From: a virus
DNA: 28,129 nucleotides
Direction: 5' to 3' (one strand)
IMG/VR virus record: IMGVR_UViG_3300035701_000215
Coordinates: 1 to 28,129 of that record
Shown: one piece after another, positions 4,497-28,129 of the stretch
How positions within the stretch are numbered: position 1 is the first letter of the stretch
Layout of the letters: every line of letters begins with the position of its first letter
Made by a program: the position numbers and the translations under genes
Notes under the pieces: generated by a model
Databases searched by the model: none
What the model was told of the DNA's origin: nothing
What the model saw: only the letters and a program-made list of their open reading frames with translations

Positions 4497-5222
4497 ATGG
4501 CTAATGCTCCAAATTATAAACTTGATCATAAATTAAAATTTAAGCAGGACGATCCGCTTTATTATGTCCTTGAGGGAGATTTGGATTTGAAGTCTAACCA
4601 TATCTATCTGATGGGTATAGAATCATATATCAGTGGTGCTGGAATTGAGGCAGCAAGAGAACCGGGAGTTGAATTTGTTATGGCTAATAGATTTATACGC
4701 AACATAAACGTTTGTATGCGTGTTAATCCAGAAACACCATTAGTAATTCATATGAAAACTTGTGGGGGAGATTGGTGCGAAGGAATGAGCATCTATGATG
4801 CAATACGTACCTTCCCTTGGCCAGTAACAATATTAAACTATACACATGCCCGTTCAATGTCTTCCTTAATATTTCAAGCTGGAAATAAAAGAGTGATGAT
4901 GCCAAATAGTTATTTCATGTTTCATGATGGAACTATTGGTATTGAGGGTACTGTTAAACAAGTAAGGTCATCAATTAAATTTGAAAAAAAAGTTGCTGAC
5001 AAGACTATGTTGGATATTTACTCTAAAGTAATGAAAGAAAGTGGAAAGATGAGCAATAAGACCCTGCAATATATAAGAAAGTGGCTTCGCACTAAAATGG
5101 ATAGAGAAGAGGATGTTTATTTGACTGCAAAAGAGGCTTGTGATCTTGGTCTGGCTGACGAAATTTTTGATGCTAATTGGAGTAAATTAACTGACTACAC
5201 GGAGGCACAACTTAATAGATAA
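4497..5222 (+). CDS. ClpP-like serine protease (S14 family)
   Basis: A 241-residue protein of ClpP fold. Seen directly: a core strand-turn like ClpP (PLVIHMKTCGGDWCEGMSIY), the nucleophile region HARSMSSLIFQAG with Ser120 at the ClpP Ser-Met position, PNSYFMFHDG with His143, and the C-terminal block YLTAKEACDLGLADEI, which parallels ClpP FLSAPEAVEYGLVDSI. Counting back from that block, Asp202 aligns with the catalytic Asp, so the triad looks complete. The first 60 residues differ from bacterial ClpP and include an insertion after the first strand, which may alter docking of an ATPase. Possible roles are processing of virion or prohead proteins, or action within the host proteolysis network. 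It has its own candidate promoter and precedes a small winged-helix gene. Family assignment is strong; role is open. Confidence 0.85.
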   Translation: MANAPNYKLDHKLKFKQDDPLYYVLEGDLDLKSNHIYLMGIESYISGAGIEAAREPGVEFVMANRFIRNINVCMRVNPETPLVIHMKTCGGDWCEGMSIYDAIRTFPWPVTILNYTHARSMSSLIFQAGNKRVMMPNSYFMFHDGTIGIEGTVKQVRSSIKFEKKVADKTMLDIYSKVMKESGKMSNKTLQYIRKWLRTKMDREEDVYLTAKEACDLGLADEIFDANWSKLTDYTEAQLNR

Positions 5223-9375: not shown

Positions 9376-9390
9376 TTGTATTTATAAAAA
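9376..9390 (+). promoter_or_regulatory. Candidate late-type promoter (TGTATTTATAAAAA)
   Basis: GTATTTATA at 9378-9386 reads toward the gene at 9406, with 19 bases between motif and ATG. With the minus-strand copy 40 bases to the left it makes a divergent promoter pair in the 133-base gap. Confidence 0.5.
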
Positions 9391-9405: not shown

Positions 9406-11445
9406 ATGGATAGTAAATCATTCAGAATTCAGACCCTTGCAGGTGGTAATGATAAATACTTAAAAATTAAGCTAGAGCAAGAAGTTAATTTAGTTGAGGT
9501 ATTATCATTGCAAATCAATCAAAAAGACTTATATGCTAGTTTTAACGGTGATTTTGGGGTTTTAATTGGTAGGATTATTGCAAATGGTGGTGTTGGTGTT
9601 CCAAATGCTAAAGTTTCTATTTTTATACCAATTTCTGAGGATGATAAGCTCAATTCTGATGTATTATCAGTCTATCCGTATTCAACACCAAGGGATAAAA
9701 ATCTTGATGGAGTTAGATACAATCTTTTACCGAGAGTAGCTACGAATAATCCTTTTTTAATTGCAGGAGAATATCTACCTGTTGTTCCAATTGGAACGTT
9801 TCCAACTAAAGAAGAAATCACCACGAATCAGACCTATATTGAAGTTTTTGAGAAATACTACAAATTCACAACTATAAGCAATAATTCAGGTGATTACATG
9901 ATATATGGTGCTCCAATTGGAAATCAAATAGTTCATATGTCTGTGGATATTACTGACATAGGTAAATATTCAATGACTCCTGCAACGATGATTACTAATC
10001 TTGGCTATTCTCCAAATCTTTTTACTGATAGTGGGACTAGAGTAAAATATAGTACGGATTTAGATGTATTACCAAACGTAGAAACACAAGAAATTGCTGT
10101 TGATATAAAATCATTTTGGGGTGATGATGTAAATTTTAGTATTGGAATTACTCGTCAAGATTTTAAAATACGTGCAACGTTAATAAGTTCATTTACTATT
10201 TTTGGTGCTGCTTTTACTGATTCTTTCACAGGTGTTTGGGGTCGTGGTGGAAGTACTATTAAACAACTATATGCTATGAACGATAGCTCACCGGGAGAAT
10301 CGGCCAATTTATCTATTTCAACTAAAAGAAATGGGTTGATGAATGAAAAACTATTTTACATACCAAATACTGTTAGTGATAGTGTTATAAATGCAAACAC
10401 ATTTAATCCTAAAACTGATTATAAAATAATGGATCAAACACAATATGGTCGATATGTAAACAATGGGACATTCATTTACATTATACCTTGTAATAGAACT
10501 AAAATAATTACTAATGAGGACGGTACTGAATCTATTGTAAGTAATGATGATCCTAGAGGTATATTTACAACATTTAATGGATTTATGCTTTTGGATTATT
10601 CGGATAAGATTGCACTTCCAATTGCTGGTGCTGGTACTGTTAGTGAATATAATGGCCGTGTTCCTAACACAGATAGAATGAGATTTAAAATACCTCAAAA
10701 CGCTGCAGCAGGTATTTCACCGCCATATCAAGAAGCTGATTCAAATTCCATAACTTATAATGATACTTGGAGAAGACAACATAAGAAATTTACTGGTGGA
10801 GAATTTTATAGTGTGGCTAGATTTCAAGGTGTTGCAAATGATATTTCTGATACTGAGGGTAATGCACCACCATATATAAACACACACACAACCTCTTATT
10901 CATCAGGAGCAATTGTAACAAATTATGTTGCAGGAAATGCTTCTTGTCAATTCCCAAATAATGGACTTGATATTGCTAATGCTTCATATACTTTATTTGC
11001 TGCAGAATATATGAATTTTTCCATATATTTTCCCCAATATACACGTTATAGCTCTTTAGATATTGGTGAAGCAGGAAGATCGAAATTATTAAATTATAAT
11101 AATAGGGGGGCATATGAATCCAATCCAAATAATCAATTAATTGCAGCAACAGAAAAGAACACAATGCATATGGGTCGTGCAGATTTGAACGCAACCTACT
11201 TTATTCATGTTCCAAAAGAAGATATTCTTAATATTATAAACCAAACGGAATTAGGTCTATCACCACAAGGATTCACAAATACACAAGCACCATATACTTC
11301 AACACCTTTAATTGGGACTGAATATAAAAGTACTGGGGGGATTAAATATTTTTATAAAGGATTAAGTAGTAATGATTCAAACGTTGTAATAACTAATGGA
11401 AATGCAGATGTTTTTTTAGTTATGAGATCGTTAGGTATTATTTAG
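9406..11445 (+). CDS. Large virion protein with an N-terminal carboxypeptidase-regulatory-like beta domain (tail/baseplate)
   Basis: A 679-residue protein without signal peptide. After FRIQTLAGGNDKYLKIKLEQ, residues about 48-75 read FGVLIGRIIANGGVGVPNAK followed by VSIFIP, the opening strands of a carboxypeptidase-regulatory-like (CnaB/prealbumin-type) beta sandwich. The closing strands appear later as SGDYMIYGAPIGNQIVHMSV (about 164-183), so the domain seems interrupted by about 75 inserted residues with conserved-looking prolines. The remainder is beta-rich, with Gly, Asn, Ser and Thr abundant and no enzymatic motif. It is probably a baseplate, neck-fibre or tail-fibre-base protein. It starts the plus-strand tail block continued at 12879-15250. 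Its TAG overlaps the end of the opposite-strand lipoprotein gene by 8 bases. Virion role is inferred; the beta domain is from pattern recognition. Confidence 0.75.
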   Translation: MDSKSFRIQTLAGGNDKYLKIKLEQEVNLVEVLSLQINQKDLYASFNGDFGVLIGRIIANGGVGVPNAKVSIFIPISEDDKLNSDVLSVYPYSTPRDKNLDGVRYNLLPRVATNNPFLIAGEYLPVVPIGTFPTKEEITTNQTYIEVFEKYYKFTTISNNSGDYMIYGAPIGNQIVHMSVDITDIGKYSMTPATMITNLGYSPNLFTDSGTRVKYSTDLDVLPNVETQEIAVDIKSFWGDDVNFSIGITRQDFKIRATLISSFTIFGAAFTDSFTGVWGRGGSTIKQLYAMNDSSPGESANLSISTKRNGLMNEKLFYIPNTVSDSVINANTFNPKTDYKIMDQTQYGRYVNNGTFIYIIPCNRTKIITNEDGTESIVSNDDPRGIFTTFNGFMLLDYSDKIALPIAGAGTVSEYNGRVPNTDRMRFKIPQNAAAGISPPYQEADSNSITYNDTWRRQHKKFTGGEFYSVARFQGVANDISDTEGNAPPYINTHTTSYSSGAIVTNYVAGNASCQFPNNGLDIANASYTLFAAEYMNFSIYFPQYTRYSSLDIGEAGRSKLLNYNNRGAYESNPNNQLIAATEKNTMHMGRADLNATYFIHVPKEDILNIINQTELGLSPQGFTNTQAPYTSTPLIGTEYKSTGGIKYFYKGLSSNDSNVVITNGNADVFLVMRSLGII

Positions 11446-11950
11446 TAAATTGAATAATAATGACATAACCAAAAGTGTTTACTTTTGAAAGCTTAATTAA
11501 ATTCGTTGAAATATCCGCAGTGTTTATAATAAAAGTATCACCATTAGAAAATTTTATAGTGACTGTTCCGTCAACATTTGAATTAAGTGTCCAAGTCACA
11601 GACATATCTGTAGGGTTGCCAAGTAAACAAGGATAATTAGCAGCGACATTATTAGTACCACTATAAGTATAATTTGGTTCAGGAGTTAAACTATCCCAAA
11701 TAGTGTCTGAAAATAATCCACTGACTTTTAATTCTGTTTTAGCACATGTAGATGTTGTAGCTGTTTTGAGACCTTGAATTACTGTTACATTTTTAAATGT
11801 CCACGTTCCCTTAAGTGTAGCTTTTACTAGATCGAGATTTGTTACTACAACAGGGTTTGTATTGGATGGTGTAGGGTCTCCAGATTTTGAACAATTGAAG
11901 AATATTATTGCTATAACAGCAAATAACGATAGAAATACATATTTTTTCAT
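11438..11950 (-). CDS. Lipoprotein with lipocalin-like domain
   Basis: A 170-residue protein starting with a clear lipoprotein signal: MKKYVFLSLFAVIAIIFFNC with Cys20 as the acylation site, followed by SKSGDPTPSN. The FFNC-SK form is frequent in Flavobacteria, where Asn before the Cys is tolerated. The mature part begins LVKATLKGTWTFKNV (about residue 41 on), with Cys69 and Cys108 that could form a disulphide and alternating beta strands to the end, resembling the lipocalin-like domains of Bacteroidota lipoproteins. The product should reach the host envelope. Such phage lipoproteins often act in superinfection exclusion or host conversion, but that is inference. It lies 47 bases downstream of the pentapeptide-repeat gene on the same strand and converges on the end of the 9406 gene with an 8-base overlap. 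Confidence 0.8.
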   Translation of the reverse strand: MKKYVFLSLFAVIAIIFFNCSKSGDPTPSNTNPVVVTNLDLVKATLKGTWTFKNVTVIQGLKTATTSTCAKTELKVSGLFSDTIWDSLTPEPNYTYSGTNNVAANYPCLLGNPTDMSVTWTLNSNVDGTVTIKFSNGDTFIINTADISTNLIKLSKVNTFGYVIIIQFTK

Positions 11951-11997: not shown

Positions 11998-12843
11998 TTA
12001 ATCTATTAGACTATCAAAAAAATCTTTATGCTGTGCGAGAAATTCTTTATCAAATTTAGTAAGATATATGGTTTTACTTTTTTTCAATTGCTCAATTGTT
12101 AATCCTTTAACCCCACGCATATCAGCTTTATATAAACTAGCGTTTTCAAAATCTGCACCAATTATGTAACTATTTTGTAGATTGGCATTCATTAGAAATG
12201 CATTCTTAAAATTAGTTTTAATTAGAAAAGAATTTTTTAAATTAGCATCAATTAAAAGAGCATTTTTGAAATTAGCACCACTAGCATATGCACCAATAAG
12301 ATTGCATTGATTAAGATTAGAATCTTTAAAATTGGTTTGATTTAATCTACAATTTTCTAAGGTAATACCAATCAATTCTGAATTTGAAATGTTAGACGTA
12401 TTTAAGTTGGAACCTTTAAGATTAGTATGATTAAGATTAGTGTTATGTAAATAACAATTAACTAAATTTATCTCATGTACTTTGAGTCTGTTAAGTCTCT
12501 TAATATTACCAACTGTACGAAAAGCAGCTTCTGGAGATTCCCAAGTTCTAAAATCGTCAATTTCATCATTATAAAAACGAATTCTCTTTTGTTTTTCACC
12601 ATTTTCATTTAACCAAAACAGTAATAGTCCAATTAATCCAATGTCAAATATCATACCATGCCCTTGAATTAAAAGTTCGTACTTAAGATTGTTAAAATCA
12701 TTAACATAGTATGGTATGCTCAACACAACGACAAAAATTGAAATTATTGTCAAAAGAATTGCTGTAGTAAGTATCGGTCTTTGAATAATATAACTATGTA
12801 TTCTAAGAAATGTTTTAAATATTTTATTGGTGGTTTTTATCAT
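11998..12843 (-). CDS. Membrane-anchored pentapeptide-repeat protein
   Basis: A 281-residue protein. Two hydrophobic helices lie at about 24-47 (ILTTAILLTIISIFVVVL) and 64-78 (MIFDIGLIGLLLFWL), followed by a charged linker. Residues 130-244 form 23 uninterrupted pentads of the A/S/T-N-L/F-x-x type (for example TNLKG, ANFKN, ADFEN), which fold into a right-handed quadrilateral beta helix; a short helical cap follows. With helices at the N-terminus, the repeat rod is probably cytoplasmic, though topology is not certain. Soluble pentapeptide proteins such as Qnr mimic DNA and shield gyrase; membrane-anchored forms are mostly uncharacterised. Gene order with the downstream lipoprotein suggests a two-gene envelope module carried as a moron among tail genes. 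The candidate promoter motif ends only 3 bases before the ATG, which would require a leaderless or nearly leaderless mRNA. Confidence 0.88.
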   Translation of the reverse strand: MIKTTNKIFKTFLRIHSYIIQRPILTTAILLTIISIFVVVLSIPYYVNDFNNLKYELLIQGHGMIFDIGLIGLLLFWLNENGEKQKRIRFYNDEIDDFRTWESPEAAFRTVGNIKRLNRLKVHEINLVNCYLHNTNLNHTNLKGSNLNTSNISNSELIGITLENCRLNQTNFKDSNLNQCNLIGAYASGANFKNALLIDANLKNSFLIKTNFKNAFLMNANLQNSYIIGADFENASLYKADMRGVKGLTIEQLKKSKTIYLTKFDKEFLAQHKDFFDSLID

Positions 12844-16854: not shown

Positions 16855-17844
16855 ATGGGTGGTAATTTATACAAAGTTCAAAGAGTAACTAAGGATCGCT
16901 ACGATGAAATTGTGGTATCCCTAAAACCAATACTTGATAAACATTTCGGTGATTATTATAGAATCCCTATTGCCTATAAAGAAAAATCAACTTATGGTGA
17001 TGTTGATATTATTTTGGACGCTGGATTTCTATTAAATAAAAAATGGGAAGGCCCACTACTTAAAGATTTGGGTGATGTTGAAGTAAAAAAAGTTCGTAAT
17101 GTTACATCTGTTTTGTATATGAATTTTCAGGTTGATTTTTTTTGTGTGAGTACATCAAGATTTATAAGTACCAGTAATTTCATGAATTACAATATCTTTG
17201 GTAATCTTATTGGTAGAATATATCATAAATTTAATTTGAAATATGGTGAGGATGGATTAAAATATGTGCTGCGAGGATTCAATGAACATATCTCCAAAGA
17301 GATAGTACTTTCGAGAGATATGAAAAAAATGCTTGAATTTCTTGAGTTGAGTTATGATCGCTGGACTGTTGGATTTAAAAATCTAAATGAAATATTCGAG
17401 TATGTTATTGGTTGTAAATATTTTTGTTCTAATTCATATTCTGACGATTATTTCAACGTAAGAAAAAGAGCTACCGAACGACCTGATTTTAATAGTTTTT
17501 TGGATTATTTGAATGTGAATAATATTAATAAAAACTATCCTTTCGAAAAGAATAAAGAAATTTATCTTCCAATGATTAACGATTATTTTCCAGAAACTAA
17601 TCTAATTGAGAAATATAAGACTCATATTAAATTACAAGAAAAATTAAAGATCATACACGATAAATTCAACGGAAAAATCATAATGGAACTCCTGCCACTG
17701 GAAGGAAAGGAACTCGGACAATTTATCAACTCCTATAAAGAACATAAAGGAGATGATTTCGAAAGATATGTTCTTGAATCAAATCAAGGACTTATAGAAT
17801 TTTCAATTAAAAATTACTATAATATGCTTCTATATGCAAAATGA
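16855..17844 (+). CDS. Nucleotidyltransferase-like protein (Pol beta superfamily)
   Basis: A 329-residue protein. The N-terminal half has a plausible nucleotidyltransferase core: STYGDVDIILD at about 45-55, with Gly48, Asp49 and Asp51 as the first metal-binding carboxylates, and the strand FQVDFFCV with Asp94 as the third. The usual G-S pair before the carboxylates is replaced by S-T-Y-G, so the match is variant but the three-carboxylate layout is intact. The C-terminal region (FNGKIIMELLPLEGKELGQF, then INSYKEH) resembles the end of CCA-adding and poly(A) polymerase tails. A tRNA- or RNA-modifying role is plausible; so is an antitoxin/toxin-type transferase. Overlaps the next gene by 4 bases (ATGA). 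Fold moderately sure, substrate unknown. Confidence 0.7.
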   Translation: MGGNLYKVQRVTKDRYDEIVVSLKPILDKHFGDYYRIPIAYKEKSTYGDVDIILDAGFLLNKKWEGPLLKDLGDVEVKKVRNVTSVLYMNFQVDFFCVSTSRFISTSNFMNYNIFGNLIGRIYHKFNLKYGEDGLKYVLRGFNEHISKEIVLSRDMKKMLEFLELSYDRWTVGFKNLNEIFEYVIGCKYFCSNSYSDDYFNVRKRATERPDFNSFLDYLNVNNINKNYPFEKNKEIYLPMINDYFPETNLIEKYKTHIKLQEKLKIIHDKFNGKIIMELLPLEGKELGQFINSYKEHKGDDFERYVLESNQGLIEFSIKNYYNMLLYAK

Positions 17845-18126: not shown

Positions 18127-18654
18127 ATGTTGAATTTAACAGCAAAACAAGTAGAAGATGCAATAATATTTGCAACTGAGAAGCATAAGGGTCAGGTAAG
18201 AAAAGGTGATGGTAGACCATACATCCTACACCCAATTTCAGTCTTGATAAGATTAAATAACGTGAAGGAGTCTAAAAACATCTTTCTGTTGATGACTGCA
18301 TGTATTTTGCATGATGTTGTGGAGGATTGTGGTGTAACTCTCGATGAAATTTCTAAGAAATTTGGACTTCATGTCGCTGGATTAGTAGAAGAATTAACTC
18401 TTGATAAAAGCAATTATGAGACCATTGGTAAAAAAGAATATCTGGCACAGGAAATGGTACATATGTCAAGTTATGCATTAGCAATTAAATTGTGTGATAG
18501 ATTAGATAATGTCTCAGATATGAAATCTATGTCAGAGGATTTCAGAAAGAAATACAAGGATGAAACGAATTTCATTCTTAATAGGTTGTCTGGTCGTAAA
18601 TTAACTAAAACACATTTGAAATTGATTAAGGAAATAAGAAAAGTTGTTGCCTAA
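18127..18654 (+). CDS. HD-domain hydrolase, small-alarmone-hydrolase (MESH1/SpoT-HD) like
   Basis: A 175-residue protein matching the hydrolase domain of RelA/SpoT and the stand-alone small alarmone hydrolases. Visible motifs: HKGQVRKGDGRPYILHPISV (residues 20-39) with His35; ACILHDVVEDCGVT with the metal-binding His62-Asp63 and Glu66-Asp67; and ALAIKLCDRLDNVSDM with Asp124 as the final metal ligand. It lacks the synthetase domain, TGS and ACT domains of long RelA/SpoT proteins, and fits single-domain length. Expected reaction: manganese-dependent removal of the 3' pyrophosphate from (p)ppGpp, or a related nucleotide. In a phage this would lower host stringent signalling or counter alarmone-based defence; that is inference. 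Shares its stop with the next start (TAATG). Confidence 0.85.
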   Translation: MLNLTAKQVEDAIIFATEKHKGQVRKGDGRPYILHPISVLIRLNNVKESKNIFLLMTACILHDVVEDCGVTLDEISKKFGLHVAGLVEELTLDKSNYETIGKKEYLAQEMVHMSSYALAIKLCDRLDNVSDMKSMSEDFRKKYKDETNFILNRLSGRKLTKTHLKLIKEIRKVVA

Positions 18655-18857
18655 TGGAAGAGAATATACCAAACCCTATATCTGAAAGTGAATACGAACC
18701 TGCAGATATTATTTGTGGAGATTGTGATGGTAATATATTACAAATTAAAATACCTCTTGAAAAACCGAAATTGTTTAGTGCGAGTTATTACATAAAGTGG
18801 GCTTATTTCTGTCAAAAATGTGGTAAACAAAGTAAAACTTTTTGTTCAAGAAAATAA
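18654..18857 (+). CDS. Small zinc-ribbon protein
   Basis: A 67-residue protein with two CxxC knuckles, Cys21-x2-Cys24 (ICGDCDG) and Cys53-x2-Cys56 (YFCQKCGK), spaced as in a zinc ribbon, plus a further Cys64. The rest is short beta strands. Zinc ribbons of this size often bind nucleic acid or other proteins. It begins on the overlapping TAATG of the alarmone-hydrolase-like gene and is followed after 5 bases by the next ATG. Partner and function unknown. Confidence 0.7.
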   Translation: MEENIPNPISESEYEPADIICGDCDGNILQIKIPLEKPKLFSASYYIKWAYFCQKCGKQSKTFCSRK

Positions 18858-18862
18858 AGATT

Positions 18863-19237
18863 ATGGGATATAAACAAAGTACATATGATGGACGTAGATT
18901 GGATCATGATGATATGACTCATCAACATCTTAGTAATTGTGTATGGCATTTTCGTATTTGGTCAAATGCAGTAGATTCTAGATTGACACATTTTTTCGAA
19001 ACCTTAGAAAGAAGATTTAATGGTGAATTATTGCCGTTTCGTCCACCTCTTCGATTTAGAAATGAAATAGAAGGGTTATATAAGGCAGATTTAGTTGTAC
19101 CTGTCGATGAATATAAAAGCAATATAGTTTATAAAGGAGTTATAATTGGTGAAATATTTAATTCACAAGAAGCTGAGATAGCTTTTTATGAACGTGAGGC
19201 GTATAATAGAGATATTGATGAATTAATAAAAGAATAA
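18863..19237 (+). CDS. Hypothetical protein
   Basis: A 124-residue protein when started at ATG 18863; an upstream TTG at 18842 would overlap the zinc-ribbon gene and is less likely. It is rich in His, Arg and Asp near the start (YDGRRLDHDDMTHQHLSN), then Phe/Arg-rich (FRPPLRFRNEIEG), and ends in a helical Glu-rich tail. No signal peptide or membrane segment. The His/Asp clustering could bind metal, but no family is recognised. It lies 3 bases before the next gene within the accessory run. Confidence 0.65.
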   Translation: MGYKQSTYDGRRLDHDDMTHQHLSNCVWHFRIWSNAVDSRLTHFFETLERRFNGELLPFRPPLRFRNEIEGLYKADLVVPVDEYKSNIVYKGVIIGEIFNSQEAEIAFYEREAYNRDIDELIKE

Positions 19238-19240
19238 ATT

Positions 19241-19663
19241 ATGATGGGGGTATTATTTTTAATCGTCATTTTGAGTTTTTTGTATCTTATTATACAAAAT
19301 ATTGAATCAAAAGATCATTCAAATCAAATGTGGGAAATATTGGTTCCAGCATCAAATAAAGATCAAGAATTTAGTTATGATCATCATAAAGAATGGGATT
19401 TATATGTAAAATCTTTGGCTGGTGGATTAACCATTATGAAGACTGCTAAAGGCGAATGGTTAAATGCTGAGGGTAAATTATACATAGATAGGGTCATACC
19501 AGTTCGAATTAAGTGCAAAAAGAAGCATATTAAAAAAATTATTGAATTTACTATTAAACATTACAACCAAGAGGCCGTTCTTGCGTATAAGATAAGTGAT
19601 GATGTGGTATTGGCTCACAAAACCAGTACTGGAATCCTTTTTGAACGAAAAAACAAATTCTAA
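19241..19663 (+). CDS. Small membrane-anchored hypothetical protein
   Basis: A 140-residue protein. Residues 2-20 (GVLFLIVILSFLYLIIQNI) form one transmembrane helix at the N-terminus, without a cleavage site. The remaining 120 residues form a soluble domain with the pattern SLAGGLTIMKTAKGEW, YIDRVIPVRIKCKKKHI, IIEFTIKHYNQEAVLAYKIS, an alpha/beta arrangement. I have seen similar 'GGLT ... G-x-W ... QEAVL' proteins in phages and bacteria without an assigned function. It starts 3 bases after the previous stop; its TAA overlaps the next ATG (TAATG). Confidence 0.65.
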   Translation: MMGVLFLIVILSFLYLIIQNIESKDHSNQMWEILVPASNKDQEFSYDHHKEWDLYVKSLAGGLTIMKTAKGEWLNAEGKLYIDRVIPVRIKCKKKHIKKIIEFTIKHYNQEAVLAYKISDDVVLAHKTSTGILFERKNKF

Positions 19664-20883
19664 TGGGATATTTGAAAGAAAAATATACACAACAGTTCAT
19701 CCGAGATAATAATCTTATCTTGGGTGAGGTTATTATAGGGTCGTATGCATTTAATCTGCATACCCCTAAATCTGACCGTGATTTATATGGTATCTATCAT
19801 CTTACAAAGGATGATTTTTACTCATTACATCATCGTGCTGATAAGTCGTATAACGATGTTGTTGAAAAACAAAGTCCGAAGGATCAGGATATTACTTATA
19901 TGGAAGTGGGAAAATTCTTTGAACTTCTGGCTCATGGTAATCCAAATGTTCTTGAAATGCTTGCAGCATATCAAGATATAAACAATGCTATCAATTGGAA
20001 CGGCAATACTCATCTTATTGACGAAATTGACATCAATAGAGTATTATCAAAAAAATGTCAAACATCATTTGGACAATATGCTGCAACCCAAATAAAGAAA
20101 GCTCGTGGACTTAATAAGAAAATTGTTAACCCTGTAGAAGTAACGAGAAAAACTCCTATTGATTTTTGTTATTTATTAAGCAAAGGAAAAACAAAACCAC
20201 TAAAAAAAGCACTTGAAGCAATTAATTTTCCGCAAAAATTTTGTGGTGTTGTTGCATTACCAAATGCTAGAGATATGTATGCCATCTATTTTGATGTTGT
20301 ATCACATGCTTTATTTGGAGGACATTTTAGTGAGGAACGTGTTGAAGGAATGAAAGAGTCAAGACGTAGGGATGGTGAACCAATGGGATATGGATTTAAA
20401 GGGATTGAACTTGAAAATTCTAATGAAATTAGGCTATCATCGATTCCTAAATTGGAAACAATACCTAAAGGGGATATTTACTTTGTGGGTCATATAAACT
20501 ACAATAAAGACGGTTATGTCCAGCACTGCAAAGATTATAAAGAATATTGGGATTGGACGAATAATCGCAATGAAGAGCGTTATAATAACAATCTCAAGCA
20601 GAATTATGACACCAAGAACATATCTCATTGTGTAAGGCTTTTAAGCGTTGCTAAAGAGATTGCAGAAGGAAAGGGTATAATCCTCAAGCGTACAGAAGAT
20701 CGTCAATTCTTGATGGATATAAAGCTTGGGAAGATCGAATATGACGTTGCTATGGGATATGCAGAAAATATTGCCAATTCTTTGGAAAATTTGTATAAAA
20801 ACAGTACCTTGCCGAACGATCCAGATTTTAATTATCTGAACGATAAACTTATCGAAATTCGCAAGAAACTATATGACGCATAA
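19663..20883 (+). CDS. RlaP-type nucleotidyltransferase (Pol beta superfamily)
   Basis: A 406-residue protein that fits the RlaP/PF10127 family of predicted nucleotidyltransferases. Residues 26-46 contain GSYAFNLHTPKSDRDLYGIY, the family signature GS-x-A-x-x-L-x-T-P-x-S-D-x-D with metal-binding Asp38 and Asp40. A third acidic region follows in QDITYMEVGKFFELL (about 75-89), and the family block GNPNVLEML at 92-100. The rest is a long helical C-terminal domain (about 120-400) of unclear role. RlaP proteins have been linked to RNA repair gene neighbourhoods, so RNA 3'-end modification after damage is the leading idea, not proven. It overlaps the thymidylate synthase gene by 11 bases in another frame. 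Family assignment strong, reaction inferred. Confidence 0.85.
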   Translation: MGYLKEKYTQQFIRDNNLILGEVIIGSYAFNLHTPKSDRDLYGIYHLTKDDFYSLHHRADKSYNDVVEKQSPKDQDITYMEVGKFFELLAHGNPNVLEMLAAYQDINNAINWNGNTHLIDEIDINRVLSKKCQTSFGQYAATQIKKARGLNKKIVNPVEVTRKTPIDFCYLLSKGKTKPLKKALEAINFPQKFCGVVALPNARDMYAIYFDVVSHALFGGHFSEERVEGMKESRRRDGEPMGYGFKGIELENSNEIRLSSIPKLETIPKGDIYFVGHINYNKDGYVQHCKDYKEYWDWTNNRNEERYNNNLKQNYDTKNISHCVRLLSVAKEIAEGKGIILKRTEDRQFLMDIKLGKIEYDVAMGYAENIANSLENLYKNSTLPNDPDFNYLNDKLIEIRKKLYDA

Positions 20884-24007: not shown

Positions 24008-24018
24008 ACATAAATACT
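24008..24018 (-). promoter_or_regulatory. Candidate late-type promoter for the neck genes (AGTATTTATG)
   Basis: On the minus strand TTAGTATTTATGTAAAA lies 14 bases before the ATG at 23994, the same spacing as at 302-324 and 16093-16078. The last base is G instead of A. The divergent + gene at 24028 has no TATTTATA motif. Confidence 0.5.
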
Positions 24019-24027
24019 AATAAATCT

Positions 24028-24525
24028 ATGTTTTCATTTGAATACTCTATAGAGTTAAATCCACATGGTAGACCAGTCATTACACCCACAGAAAAGACAG
24101 ATAAAGAACTTGATTTCATTGAACATAAGTTTATGGCTCTGGAATTGGCAAGAACAATCATAACCAATACAATAGATAATCACGATGAAAATCCTGAAAA
24201 GTATTCATTGCAGCCATCTGACCTTGCAGGTTTATTAGCTGCTAAATCTGATATTGAAAAAATTTGTGATATATTTGCAAACGCAATAAAGAACCAAATG
24301 AATCTAATGGATGATGCTAATGCAATACTTAATCCACAAACATATAATTTACAGGTCAAAACAATGAAAGATTTATATTCATTAAATTATAATGGTATCA
24401 TCTATGACACTACAATTTTTAAAAGAGTAGAAGGATTACGAGTAAAAGTTCTTGCAGATATGAGAATTTATGAATTAAGAGGTGGAATAGATAATAACAA
24501 CTGGATTGATGTCACAAACGAATAG
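24028..24525 (+). CDS. Hypothetical protein
   Basis: A 165-residue soluble protein. It starts with a beta strand (FSFEYSIELNPHGRPVI), then is mainly helical (ELDFIEHKFMALELARTIIT, PSDLAGLLAAKSDIEKICDI). No enzymatic motif is visible and no signal peptide. It overlaps the following helicase start by 17 bases in another frame, suggesting joint expression with a DNA-metabolism gene. Divergent from the neck genes. Not recognised. Confidence 0.7.
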   Translation: MFSFEYSIELNPHGRPVITPTEKTDKELDFIEHKFMALELARTIITNTIDNHDENPEKYSLQPSDLAGLLAAKSDIEKICDIFANAIKNQMNLMDDANAILNPQTYNLQVKTMKDLYSLNYNGIIYDTTIFKRVEGLRVKVLADMRIYELRGGIDNNNWIDVTNE

Positions 24526-26083
24526 CATAACACATAATTACGATCCAAGATCAACACCAGAACAAGTAGCTATTTATGATTGGGTCGTGAATGGAACTGG
24601 TAATTTATTAATTAGAGCACGTGCTGGTTCTGGAAAGACTAGTACGTTGGTGGGTATTTCTAAACTTCTAGACCCATCGATCAGAACCACATTTCTAGCA
24701 TTCAATAAACACATCCAAGTTGAATTAAAAAGTAAATTACCAAAACATGTATTCTGTTATACTGCACATGGACTTGGATATTCAGCTATTAAGAAGAAAT
24801 ATAAAGATGTCGTTGTCGATAATCTTAAGGTTGATAAGTTGATAAATAAACATCTTAAAACTTGGAACCCCAAACAAATTGATAATATTGTTCTATATAT
24901 TAGAAATTTCAAGAAAATGATTAATCTCATTAGATTATCATTAACACTAAATAAGAAATATGTCCCTGATTTGTGTGAAAGATATGATATAAAATTTGAC
25001 ACTCAAGACATTGATAGAATGTTTTTAATTTTAGAGGAAATGCTCAATGATAAGAAGACTATTGATTTCACGGATATGGTATATCTTCCTGTTGTTGACC
25101 CAAAGATATGGCTATTTCCTCAAGAATTTGTTTTAATTGATGAGGCACAAGATTTATCTAAAGCACAACATGAGTTGGTAAAAAAATGTGTGAAAAAAGA
25201 TAAAGCAGGAAAGTTTGTTGGACGAATGGTTTTTGTTGGTGATGATATGCAAGCTATTTATGGTTTTACAGGGTCGGATGCATTTTCATTCATGAATCTT
25301 TCGAAAATACCTAACACTATAATACTCCCATTGACTACGACATTTAGATGTGCTAAAAATATTGTTCTAGAAGCTAATACCATCGTAAAGGATATTAGAC
25401 CTATGGATAATGCTCCTGATGGTGTTGTAAGAAAAGGATCAGTATTGGATGAGGCTGTTGCAGGTGATTTTGTATTATCTAGAAAAACATTTCCTTTAGT
25501 AAAAATGTTTTTTGATCTTCTTGTTCAAAATAAAAAGTCTTATATTAAAGGGAGTGATATTGGTAAAACCTTGATAGATTTTACATATGGAAAAAGTTCA
25601 ATGTCACAATTAGATGCTTCACTAACAAACAAATTATCTGAATGTAGAACTAATTTATCCAGACATGGTGTCATTAATTATCAAGATGATATAGGTTATA
25701 CCACTTTAAATGATATGATAAAAATACTTCGTTTTTTTATGACTATGGTCGATGGAAATATAGAAGCATTAAAAGAACGTATACTATATATTTTTAAAGG
25801 TGGTAGTTCCGAAGATGATCTAGTGGATGAGAATGGTATAGCAATATTAAATAAAAGTGATGGAATTGTTTTAAGTACAGTACACAAATCAAAGGGTCTT
25901 GAATCGGATAAAGTGTTTATCATCATGCCTAAAGATATGCCTTTGAGAACATCACAACCTTGGCAATATCAACAGGAAATGAATTTAAAATATATTGCAA
26001 TTACACGAGCTAAGAGAGAATTGATTTATGATATGGATTGGGTTGTTGATGACGGTACATTCGAATCATTTACTAATGATTAA
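24509..26083 (+). CDS. UvrD/Rep-like superfamily 1 DNA helicase
   Basis: A 524-residue helicase started at ATG 24509 (a TTG three bases earlier also fits). Motifs in order: Q-type DPRSTPEQVAIYDW; Walker A IRARAGSGKTSTL with Lys43; Walker B LIDEAQD (about 209-215); motif III VFVGDDMQAIYGFTGSDAF; motif IV TFRCAKNIV; motif V STVHKSKGLESDKVFII; motif VI YIAITRAKRELIY. The set is complete, so it should be an active ATP-dependent 3'-to-5' helicase of the UvrD/Rep type, though it is shorter than UvrD (720) because the B subdomains are small. In the phage it could unwind replication or recombination intermediates; T4 uses the SF1 helicase Dda in a related role. Its end overlaps the opposite-strand membrane gene by 11 bases. 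Confidence 0.9.
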   Translation: MSQTNSITHNYDPRSTPEQVAIYDWVVNGTGNLLIRARAGSGKTSTLVGISKLLDPSIRTTFLAFNKHIQVELKSKLPKHVFCYTAHGLGYSAIKKKYKDVVVDNLKVDKLINKHLKTWNPKQIDNIVLYIRNFKKMINLIRLSLTLNKKYVPDLCERYDIKFDTQDIDRMFLILEEMLNDKKTIDFTDMVYLPVVDPKIWLFPQEFVLIDEAQDLSKAQHELVKKCVKKDKAGKFVGRMVFVGDDMQAIYGFTGSDAFSFMNLSKIPNTIILPLTTTFRCAKNIVLEANTIVKDIRPMDNAPDGVVRKGSVLDEAVAGDFVLSRKTFPLVKMFFDLLVQNKKSYIKGSDIGKTLIDFTYGKSSMSQLDASLTNKLSECRTNLSRHGVINYQDDIGYTTLNDMIKILRFFMTMVDGNIEALKERILYIFKGGSSEDDLVDENGIAILNKSDGIVLSTVHKSKGLESDKVFIIMPKDMPLRTSQPWQYQQEMNLKYIAITRAKRELIYDMDWVVDDGTFESFTND

Positions 26084-26393
26084 TACCACCTTTAGTATCT
26101 TCAATATTTGATTTTTTATCCATAGTTTGTTTTAAAATTATCTCAAGATAACTACCTGATTTGATTTGCATATCTCTAACATCACTGACATCATTCTTGG
26201 TTTTATCTAAATCGACTTGAATTTTTTCAATGGTTTTCTGCGTTTCATTGTGTCTTTCATTCATATTAGACATTGCAATATTATAAAAAGTATAAAATAG
26301 GGCTGTCATTCCCAATATAATACCTAGTACATATGATATTAATTCCTTGAGACCAATGGTTAATGTAGTTTTTTCTGAATCTATTTTTGTCAT
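26073..26393 (-). CDS. Small membrane protein with coiled coil
   Basis: A 106-residue protein with one transmembrane helix at about 18-40 (ISYVLGIILGMTALFYTFY) and a long charged coiled coil (HNETQKTIEKIQVDLDKTK) to about 75. No cleavage site. It is the last gene of a minus-strand group of five small membrane or exported proteins (26073-27926), one base beyond its neighbour, and converges with the helicase end by an 11-base overlap. It may belong to a lysis or envelope cassette, inferred from cluster context. Topology not certain. Confidence 0.65.
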   Translation of the reverse strand: MTKIDSEKTTLTIGLKELISYVLGIILGMTALFYTFYNIAMSNMNERHNETQKTIEKIQVDLDKTKNDVSDVRDMQIKSGSYLEIILKQTMDKKSNIEDTKGGINH

Positions 26394-26394
26394 A

Positions 26395-26829
26395 TTAATA
26401 ATATTGAATGCTTTCCCAAGTTAAGGAAAAATTTAAATTAGTTTCATTTGTCTTATACCAAAAGATAACAGTACTATTTTCAAATGGTATTATAGACCAA
26501 AATCCTTCTGGAAATGCACCACTAATAAGAATGCCATTTGCAAATGTTCTAATACCTGAAATGTATATTCTCGTTTGATTACCTTGATACCAAGAATGAT
26601 TTATTATATTAAATTCATATTTGGTATTGTATATTGGATCATCTATTTCTGTTTTAGTTATATATATTGACATTCGTATATGCGTTGCTAATGAAGCATC
26701 ACCATAGATTACATCATCAAATTTTTGGTGTAATACTTTATTGTTCGATTGAATTTGATTATAGTTTTGAGCATTAGAATTCCATATAATTGAAAGTAGA
26801 AGAAAAAATAGTAATATAGTTTTTTTCAT
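26395..26829 (-). CDS. Exported protein with cleavable signal peptide
   Basis: A 144-residue protein with a typical Sec signal peptide: MKKTILLFFLLLSIIWNSNA with a cleavage site after SNA, before Gln21. The mature part is beta-rich with aromatic residues (YEFNIINHSWYQGNQTRIYI, GAFPEGFWSIIPF). It contains no cysteine and no known catalytic motif. The product should reach the periplasm or outer membrane. It follows the coiled-coil gene at 26833-27330 by 3 bases in the same cluster. A role at the host envelope is likely from export; the precise one is unknown. Confidence 0.7.
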   Translation of the reverse strand: MKKTILLFFLLLSIIWNSNAQNYNQIQSNNKVLHQKFDDVIYGDASLATHIRMSIYITKTEIDDPIYNTKYEFNIINHSWYQGNQTRIYISGIRTFANGILISGAFPEGFWSIIPFENSTVIFWYKTNETNLNFSLTWESIQYY

Positions 26830-26832
26830 AAT

Positions 26833-27330
26833 TTAGTTGTTTGCTTGTACTATAAATATACACAAAAAGAAAAAAACTGCTAATCCCTTCCAAATATAAA
26901 CCTGTGTTTGACCCTTTTGCATTCTTATGACCTTACTTTTTTCATCATAAAATGATCCATTTAAATGTCTATAGCTTTTATCTAATTCAGAATATTTCTG
27001 TCCCATTTCTAAAATTTTAGCCTTTAAAGACTCTACCTCATTCTCCATAGAAGCTATTTGAATGTTTGCCCTTTTTAATTCATCAAATGTTTTTTCGGAA
27101 GTTTTTGACTGTCTTTCAAGATCAGCCAATGTAGTTTCATAATCAATTTTTATTGATTGGTATCTAATTAATAAATTTTTATAGTCTTCAATATCTTTTC
27201 GAAGGGCATCATGTTTTGTTTTAGTTAAAACAATTAATTCCTCATCATTACTTTTGACGTTTGGAATTGACTGGCTCAATATCACTCCACTTATATTTAA
27301 GAATAAGACTAGCAAGAGAATCTTTTTCAT
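26833..27330 (-). CDS. Exported coiled-coil protein with C-terminal membrane helix (spanin candidate)
   Basis: A 165-residue protein: Sec signal at residues 1-19 (MKKILLLVLFLNISGVILS), a long coiled coil at about 40-135 (for example EVESLKAKILEMGQKYSEL), and a terminal hydrophobic helix (VYIWKGLAVFFFLCIFIV) at about 143-161. This places the coiled coil in the periplasm, tethered at its C-terminus, an arrangement resembling a spanin component. It has no lipobox cysteine, so it is not a classical o-spanin or u-spanin lipoprotein. Its first 83 bases overlap the end of the upstream gene in another frame, as in Rz/Rz1-type pairs. Lysis role is inferred. Confidence 0.65.
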   Translation of the reverse strand: MKKILLLVLFLNISGVILSQSIPNVKSNDEELIVLTKTKHDALRKDIEDYKNLLIRYQSIKIDYETTLADLERQSKTSEKTFDELKRANIQIASMENEVESLKAKILEMGQKYSELDKSYRHLNGSFYDEKSKVIRMQKGQTQVYIWKGLAVFFFLCIFIVQANN

Positions 27331-27631
27331 GTATTAATTTTATTATTTGAATATTTTTTTCGCTAATTATCGTATTATTTTGTTTTTGTTCATTGGTAAT
27401 AATATCGATAACACCACTAAGAGCATCAATACTATCGTTTTTTGTGAGTAATATTTTGGTTAATGCTTCATTAACCGCAACATCTCTTTTTAATTGTTCA
27501 TCATTAGATCGAATACTAATAGCTAAATTGGATGTGTTATTAAAGAACACATATCCACTAAATGATGCAAAAATCAGAATGAAAACAACGAATCCGATTA
27601 TTCCTAATTTATTTAATTTTTGTTTATCCAT
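27248..27631 (-). CDS. i-spanin-like membrane protein (N-terminal TM, coiled coil)
   Basis: A 127-residue protein: short basic N-terminus (MDKQKLNKLG), transmembrane helix at about 10-30 (IIGFVVFILIFASFSGYVFF), then a periplasmic coiled coil (KRDVAVNEALTKILLTKNDS to KLIHEKDSLASLILKY). This is the architecture of Rz-type inner-membrane spanins, which span the periplasm to an outer-membrane partner during lysis. Its last 83 bases overlap the start of the next gene in another frame. Spanins diverge greatly in sequence, so assignment rests on architecture and gene order. An endolysin is not in the window. Confidence 0.6.
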   Translation of the reverse strand: MDKQKLNKLGIIGFVVFILIFASFSGYVFFNNTSNLAISIRSNDEQLKRDVAVNEALTKILLTKNDSIDALSGVIDIITNEQKQNNTIISEKNIQIIKLIHEKDSLASLILKYKWSDIEPVNSKRQK

Positions 27632-27635
27632 GTTG

Positions 27636-27926
27636 TTATTTATCTATTTTAAGTTTTATATACACATCTTGAATTTCTTTTCTTAAATCCTCTTCTGCTT
27701 TAATTCTCTCCTTTAAATCAGCAATTCTTTCATTTGAGACTTCACTGATTTTTAACCATAATTTCACAATCACACCCGCTTGTACCACAACAATAAAATA
27801 TAGAATACCAACAACTGCGTTATTTTGTCTTAAACTATCGATTGCACCACCAGCATCAACCAATGTTTCTGTTTGTGCTAGTACAAATAAGTGTAGTAAT
27901 GCCATTAGAGAGAAATATAATTTCAT
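27636..27926 (-). CDS. Small membrane protein, holin candidate
   Basis: A 96-residue protein. An N-terminal signal-like segment (MKLYFSLMALLHLFVLAQ) is followed by a short polar stretch, one transmembrane helix at about 38-57 (AVVGILYFIVVVQAGVIVKL) and a charged coiled-coil tail (RIADLKERIKAEEDLRKEIQ). With the tail positively and negatively charged and cytoplasmic by the positive-inside rule, it looks like a small holin- or antiholin-type protein, but no family is recognised. First gene of the five-gene minus-strand cluster, with a candidate promoter 11 bases before its ATG and 4 bases to the next gene. Not secure. Confidence 0.6.
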   Translation of the reverse strand: MKLYFSLMALLHLFVLAQTETLVDAGGAIDSLRQNNAVVGILYFIVVVQAGVIVKLWLKISEVSNERIADLKERIKAEEDLRKEIQDVYIKLKIDK

Positions 27927-27935
27927 ATTCTTTTT

Positions 27936-27947
27936 TTTATAAATACT
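27936..27947 (-). promoter_or_regulatory. Candidate late-type promoter of the membrane-protein cluster (AGTATTTATA)
   Basis: On the minus strand AAAAAGTATTTATAAAAAAAAG lies 11 bases before the ATG at 27926. The neighbour upstream is on the same strand and ends at a terminator, so the TATTTATA orientation is unambiguous here. Confidence 0.5.
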
Positions 27948-27975: not shown

Positions 27976-27999
27976 AAGGGTAAGATTTCTCTTACCCTT
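27976..27999 (-). terminator. Intrinsic terminator after the right-edge gene
   Basis: On the minus strand AAGGGTAAGA and TCTTACCCTT form a 10-base-pair stem with a GAAA tetraloop, followed by a long T-run (CCCTTTTTTTTATTTATTTT). It lies just downstream of the gene stopping at 28022-28024 and is immediately followed by the promoter motif of the next cluster. Confidence 0.88.
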
Positions 28000-28021: not shown

Positions 28022-28129
28022 TTATTGAAGTAAACCGATACCGAATGTATCCAAACCATCACACAATACCTTACCGAAGTAACGGTTGATGATGAATTTC
28101 TTAGCGTATCTGGTCATAATACCTCTGAT
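28022..28129 (-). CDS. C-terminal end of an unidentified, probably abundant virion protein (cut by window edge)
   Basis: The last 35 codons and the TAA of a minus-strand gene extending beyond the window, ending MTRYAKKFIINRYFGKVLCD followed by GLDTFGIGLLQ. The codons favour C endings (ATC, AAC, TAC, TTC) and CGT/GGT more than most genes here, like the tail tube, which is expected for strongly expressed virion genes. A strong terminator follows. The major capsid protein is a reasonable guess from codon use and from being separately terminated, but the short peptide does not prove it. Confidence 0.6.
   Translation of the reverse strand: MRGIMTRYAKKFIINRYFGKVLCDGLDTFGIGLLQ

Follow-up and report, generated by a model that had tools for sequence, protein, structure and literature searches.

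The viral DNA fragment analysed here, hereafter the window, is 28,129 bases long (IMG/VR record IMGVR_UViG_3300035701_000215), and in it five small genes, here termed A to E, stand in a row between the gene for a T4 gp23-like major capsid protein and that for a UvrD/Rep-like helicase. The initial annotation took them for a candidate lysis or envelope cassette, and the question that this locus raises is whether they are the machinery that lyses the host or act on the cell envelope in some other way. Lysis by Bacteroidota phages is poorly described, and we know of no worked-out lysis system for the jumbo phages of this phylum. Our answer, which is a tentative one, is that A–E may be an accessory late cell-envelope module that adjusts the last envelope step of infection and is not essential lysis machinery. 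A regulatory or accessory role in adjusting lysis is suggested because the genes appear to be late, envelope-directed, dispensable and constantly paired.

All five open reading frames (ORFs) are present on the minus strand, adjacent and small, as had been annotated, with successive gaps of 4, -83, 3 and 1 nucleotides (nt) from A to E. Genes were called by a simple longest-ORF scheme, while transmembrane (TM) segments and signals were called with a Kyte-Doolittle scan and inspection, and the topologies are predictions. Hydropathy gives a signal and/or a TM segment in each product, which bears out the envelope targeting that had been proposed. Gene A (27636..27926; 96 amino acids, aa) encodes a signal or weak first TM segment (residues 5-23), a second one (38-56) and a charged C-terminal helix, and its C-terminus is probably inside the cell. 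In gene B (27248..27631; 127 aa) the N-terminus is positively charged, because of which its orientation is probably N-in/C-out, and is followed by a TM segment (11-29) and an extended polar domain; the architecture resembling an inner-membrane spanin (i-spanin) that had been read from this second gene was thus recovered. Gene C (26833..27330; 165 aa) starts within B, overlaps it by 83 nt and encodes a signal peptide, a long coiled-coil-like domain and a C-terminal TM segment (144-162). Gene D (26395..26829; 144 aa) encodes a signal peptide (..NAQ) and a soluble beta-sandwich that lacks cysteine, and its AlphaFold2 model is an all-beta sandwich with a predicted local distance difference test (pLDDT) score of 90.8. 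Gene E (26073..26393; 106 aa), the constant neighbour of D, has one TM segment (18-36) and a glycine-containing C-terminal tail that carries a glycine-rich, GGSFG-like motif in many homologues; it was modelled as a single continuous helix (residues 15-95) followed by a disordered tail (pLDDT 70.9).

A comparison with a relative, L004 (IMGVR_UViG_3300032046_000082, a 39 kb contig), demonstrated that A–E are real genes and not chance ORFs. All five are under purifying selection, with ratios of non-synonymous to synonymous substitution rates (dN/dS) of 0.035 for A, 0.26 for B, 0.09 for C, 0.33 for D and 0.13 for E. In the B/C overlap, the synonymous rate (dS) collapses to 0.06, whereas B has 1.3 and C 1.1 outside it. 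Such a fall is to be expected when both frames are read; the overlap is therefore dual-coding and constrained in both frames. Moreover, genes with a hydrophobic segment make up approximately 15-17% of those in two long relatives, in which the longest run of such genes is 3-4, and the chance of five consecutive ones is about 1e-4. No gene of the region changes faster than D, which shares 52% identity with its L004 counterpart, compared with 93% for A, 87% for C and 87-97% for nearby genes outside the cassette.

The phage belongs to a clade of T4-like Bacteroidota phages with genomes of 250-370 kb. A search of IMG/VR with the capsid protein returned 80 loci, many of them on contigs of 250-365 kb; relatives among deposited phages, Flavobacterium phage immuto and Rhodothermus phage RM378, are distant (<60% identity). 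The host phylum that had been supposed is likely, although not proven, since Bacteroidota and Bacteroidales are the labels of two contigs, assembled from metagenomes, whose capsid gene is 73-76% identical. The contigs of the relatives are metagenomic and possibly incomplete, and both the window and L004 are fragments.

Across these relatives, the interval between the capsid and helicase genes is conserved as a place and variable in content, and the cassette falls into three modules (A+B, C and D+E) instead of forming a single conserved set. Genes A and B were found only in the window, L004, L083 and L169 (a 371,504 bp contig), the A protein being 93% identical in L004 and 67% in L169. At the cassette site, C is present only in the window and L004; L169 reads capsid-A-B-D-E, which marks C as an insert at the B–D junction of the two genomes that have it. 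A signal-coil-TM relative of C does lie elsewhere in L169 (348,911-349,423); it aligns with a score of 123, and the highest score among 500 shuffles was 91. L083 is without C–E, and most relatives are without A–C. By contrast, profile searches found D followed by E between the capsid and helicase genes in 28 loci, and the two are adjacent in all 28 of the loci that have D. In L054, E is present with no detectable D. In a distant phage (G022), a weak relative of D (E-value 3e-6) lies in the head gene region, overlapped by 1 nt by a small TM-plus-coil protein in the E position that is recognised by position and layout only. D was not found anywhere in several contigs of 320-335 kb, whose completeness is not established. 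When the presence of D/E was placed on a tree of 51 capsid proteins, 11 changes were counted, at least 7 of which are forced by well-supported branches, and these changes point to a dispensable pair that has been repeatedly gained or lost. The same interval in L006-L085 is also a hotspot of inserts of 120-600 aa after the capsid gene; some are GIY-YIG-like, others form recurring families (MEAYQYKIRKE..., MKKIIINKTIILFLN...), and they are perhaps homing endonucleases.

Turning to expression, the major capsid gene, of which the window holds the C-terminal 35 codons (28022..28129, minus strand) and L004 the complete gene, lies upstream of A and is followed by an intrinsic terminator with a 10-bp stem and a T-run (27976..27999, minus strand). 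Between this terminator and A stands a putative late-promoter motif, AGTATTTAT (27939..27947, minus strand), 21 nt before the gene. At the far end, the helicase gene (24506..26083, plus strand) is convergent with E, overlaps it by 11 bp and forms the conserved right border of the variable interval. With their tight gaps, their own promoter motif and the preceding terminator, A–E are predicted to form a transcription unit set off from the capsid gene, which supports both the co-transcription and the single promoter motif reported initially. Within the window, AGTATTTAT is also found upstream of virion genes, among them those for sheath, tube and neck. (A)GTATTTAT has further sites at 24017, 16101, 12855, 9342 and 6156 on the minus strand and at 9378 and 4445 on the plus strand, for the most part 20-30 nt upstream of a start codon, and in L004 GTATTTAT stands before the capsid gene as well. 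In two long relatives, G005 (365 kb) and G031 (371 kb), it occurs 133 and 80 times, respectively, with 52 of the 133 and 25 of the 80 occurrences lying 20-30 nt before gene starts, whereas control octamers, including the reverse complement of GTATTTAT, are found there 0-6 times. Many other phages have the motif immediately upstream of D, mostly past the capsid terminator. Because the motif is common to A and the virion genes, A–E look to be expressed late; in jumbo phages of lake Bacteroidetes, whose kinship to this clade is not established, structural genes were reported to be transcribed at a late stage (PMC9723584). When one base is added to the reverse complement of (A)GTATTTAT, the result includes the T4 late-promoter octamer TATAAATA, which hence lies on the opposite strand.

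A promoter motif held in common with virion genes and a location in the head gene cluster could also mean that A–E are minor capsid or tail proteins encoded beside the capsid gene. This we consider very improbable, given the signal peptide on D, the TM segments on A, B, C and E, the terminator and promoter that separate them from the capsid gene and the many relatives that are without them.

Homology searches gave little guidance to function. Pfam and PHROG scans placed none of A–E in a family, in agreement with the earlier remark that no family was recognisable. Matches to coiled coils (PHROG 739, PHROG 1009, Fez1 and similar) were weak and mixed and were set aside; those to PHROG 739 reached E-values of 0.0037 for E and 0.011 for C, which is noise level for coiled coils. 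Neither the cassette DNA nor protein C had a match among deposited phages, and an alignment of D found no relative among 84,980 species genomes. A Foldseek search with D gave nothing below an E-value of 0.04. The best match of D in VIA-align was a DUF1425 protein (Z 6.6), followed by MATH and ApaG domains, all within the range that common arrangements give. This weak resemblance to generic periplasmic beta-sandwiches, together with products that are all envelope-directed and apparently late, would accord with a remodelling of the host envelope outside lysis and exclusion, for example altered secretion or protection of the cell over the long course of a jumbo-phage infection; nothing specific speaks for such a role, and we judge it improbable.

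In the accessory envelope module that we favour, D would be secreted to the periplasm and work with the membrane helix E, B and, where present, C would reach into the periplasm, and A would sit in the inner membrane. The module might adjust the timing or inhibition of lysis in a holin/antiholin-like manner, or it might help to disrupt the outer membrane. Repeated gain and loss, as seen for D/E, would be expected of an accessory function more than of an essential step in lysis. Several points weigh against this explanation. The charge is similar on either side of the TM segment of E and does not settle its orientation, the helix of E is unlike the T4 holin T with its globular domain in the periplasm, and no family match above noise in Pfam or PHROG ties any of the five genes to lysis. 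Additionally, the fast evolution of D would suit equally well an arms race such as superinfection exclusion. In this, the main rival explanation and in our view a less likely one, D and E (and A–C), made late, would shield the envelope by blocking adsorption or DNA entry, whether of the same phage or of competitors, and the fast-evolving D would be the part that determines specificity. Exclusion would explain the dispensability of the pair, with its accessory distribution and repeated gain and loss, and the divergence of D next to far better conserved flanking genes equally well, and an exported soluble protein beside a membrane protein recalls Sp and Imm of T4. It is weaker mainly on the promoter motif, which is that of the virion genes, whereas the T4 exclusion genes Sp and Imm are expressed early; no family match supports it either.

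The initial proposal of holin and spanin roles was sustained only in part. The topologies do resemble parts of holin/antiholin and spanin systems and the late motif is in place, but no lipobox, no nearby endolysin and no conserved set were found. Profiles of five Pfam families of peptidoglycan hydrolases (PF00959, PF01520, PF08291, PF01551 and PF01510) were all negative in the window and in the 39 kb L004 contig, and the amidase genes of the clade lie approximately 125-220 kb away, so the endolysin that was to be looked for nearby did not appear. The two hydrophobic segments of A and its charged C-terminal helix recall a class II holin, but the first segment may be a cleaved signal. The hydropathy and flanking charges of B fit the N-terminal TM domain of an i-spanin oriented N-in/C-out, and the 83-nt overlap of B and C is one of the arrangements (embedded, overlapped or adjacent) in which spanin genes occur. 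The published criteria for spanins are a lipobox for an outer-membrane or unimolecular spanin (o-spanin, u-spanin) and a periplasmic cysteine for covalent dimers (PMC6139136). No lipobox was found in any of A–E, and therefore none qualifies as an o- or u-spanin. The only cysteine of C, at position 157, lies within its C-terminal TM segment, with none near the signal, and B has no cysteine, which leaves neither protein with the periplasmic cysteine of two-component spanins. C has the C-terminal TM domain of a unimolecular spanin and, in both the window and L004, lacks the lipobox. Among the 28 homologues of D, no cysteine stands at the signal cleavage site, and a cysteine in the signal region occurs only in L004 (position 18, then KAQ) and L050 (position 15).

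It could nevertheless be argued that A is a holin and B/C or D/E a spanin complex, with the endolysin encoded elsewhere. In T4, too, holin, endolysin and spanins are encoded apart (PMC6139136), and therefore a lysis role for A–E is not refuted by distance alone. Late expression, as indicated by the motif, the i-spanin topology of B, the overlapped-spanin-like start of C within B (PMC6139136) and the dual-frame constraint in that overlap would all agree with such a core lysis cassette. We still consider it unlikely because of the repeated loss of the genes (A–C from most clade members, D/E from many) and the missing lipobox, which is absent in all five genes and at the signal cleavage site of the D homologues; the predicted periplasmic parts of B and C are without cysteine, and the clade has a separate amidase block with TM proteins of its own. 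Slightly less likely still is that A–E, or the B/C or D/E half, represent a new mechanistic class, namely a system for outer-membrane disruption or lysis control that does without a lipoprotein. Inner-membrane coiled coils of opposite orientation, with B anchored at its N-terminus and C at its C-terminus, might then replace lipobox spanins or T/RI, or a soluble beta-sandwich and a membrane helix might do their job. Such a class has been anticipated for phages that lack spanins (PMC6139136).

The amidase block is a better candidate than A–E for the lysis machinery of the clade. This conserved block, seen in nearly all members (L119, L148-L160 and L195), comprises two Amidase_2 genes and genes for a 122-aa protein with two TM segments, a 64-aa TM protein and a TM-coil protein of 250-275 aa. 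In G005 (L119), it occupies 295-311 kb, compared with 78 kb for D/E, and one of the amidases comes with a late motif of its own. The block is found both in phages with D/E (G002, G005, G016, G018, G019 and G031) and in phages without (G003, G004, G006, G007, G009, G015, G021 and G025). In some phages, both with and without D/E, the first amidase of the pair was not detected in the block, and the idea that D/E stand in for a missing lysis gene was discarded, as the comparison gave no such pattern. Also rejected was a putative holin by the fibre genes of G005 (133,029-133,307), which turned up in no other genome tested. In L204 (G031, 338.6 kb), a 181-aa protein with a late motif (18628-19173) is M15-peptidase-like by eye, with no Pfam match, and is a possible endolysin; near it, a small lipoprotein-like gene (17259-17504; G031, 337.3 kb) with CADCAC is a possible o-spanin. 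The analysis thus sets an accessory, strictly paired envelope module, D/E, apart from a conserved amidase block, and the late-promoter motif of the clade points to candidate lysis genes across the genome. It has thereby become testable which genes form the lysis machinery and which ones tune lysis or guard the cell.

Several other genes of the window deserve mention. Between the tail genes lie a lipoprotein gene (11438-11950, minus strand) and, with a late motif, a gene for a TM protein with pentapeptide repeats (11998-12843, minus strand); a similar-looking pair occurs in G031 at 24.4-25.8 kb. A ClpP-like serine protease gene (4497-5222, plus strand; Pfam E-value 4e-21), also with a late motif, adjoins the tail tube and sheath genes. 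Further along the plus strand are genes for a SpoT-like HD_4 hydrolase (18127-18654) and an RlaP-type nucleotidyltransferase (19663-20883), the latter followed by a thymidylate-synthase-like gene.

Compared with known systems, the amidase block of the same clade shares with A–E the late-motif genes, small TM proteins and a TM-coil protein, but it also has Amidase_2 enzymes, shows no detected homology to A–E, is present with and without D/E and is far from them. Two-component overlapped spanins (Rz/Rz1-like; PHROG 739) are matched by B, with its N-terminal TM segment and extended periplasmic part, and by C, whose signal is encoded in the overlap with the end of B; unlike them, C has no lipobox and no predicted periplasmic cysteine and ends in a TM segment. 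According to one report, all spanins of Bacteroidetes phages are unimolecular, of the T1 gp11 type (PMC12596118). C resembles this type in the N-terminal signal, coiled coil, C-terminal TM segment and lack of a periplasmic cysteine and differs in having no lipobox cysteine and hence no known outer-membrane anchor. The T4 genes for holin and antiholin, t and rI, are not adjacent in the genome, whereas D and E are. The holin T has a single TM segment (PMC12162936), the antiholin RI is exported with a cleavable signal peptide (PMC8385771), and in the TeaA/ArrA pair of phage ICP1 the antiholin is non-essential (PMC7182436). D/E are like T/RI in joining a single-TM membrane protein to an exported partner with a cleavable signal, in what would be a dispensable lysis regulator. 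They are unlike it in that D is an all-beta sandwich and E one long helix, in place of the TM segment and globular domain of T; no sequence match was found, the T/RI families having no PHROG or Pfam match and being absent among the structure matches listed for D, and D is not claimed as a homologue of RI. As a resemblance of layout only, T/RI or TeaA/ArrA may be the nearest working model for D and E.

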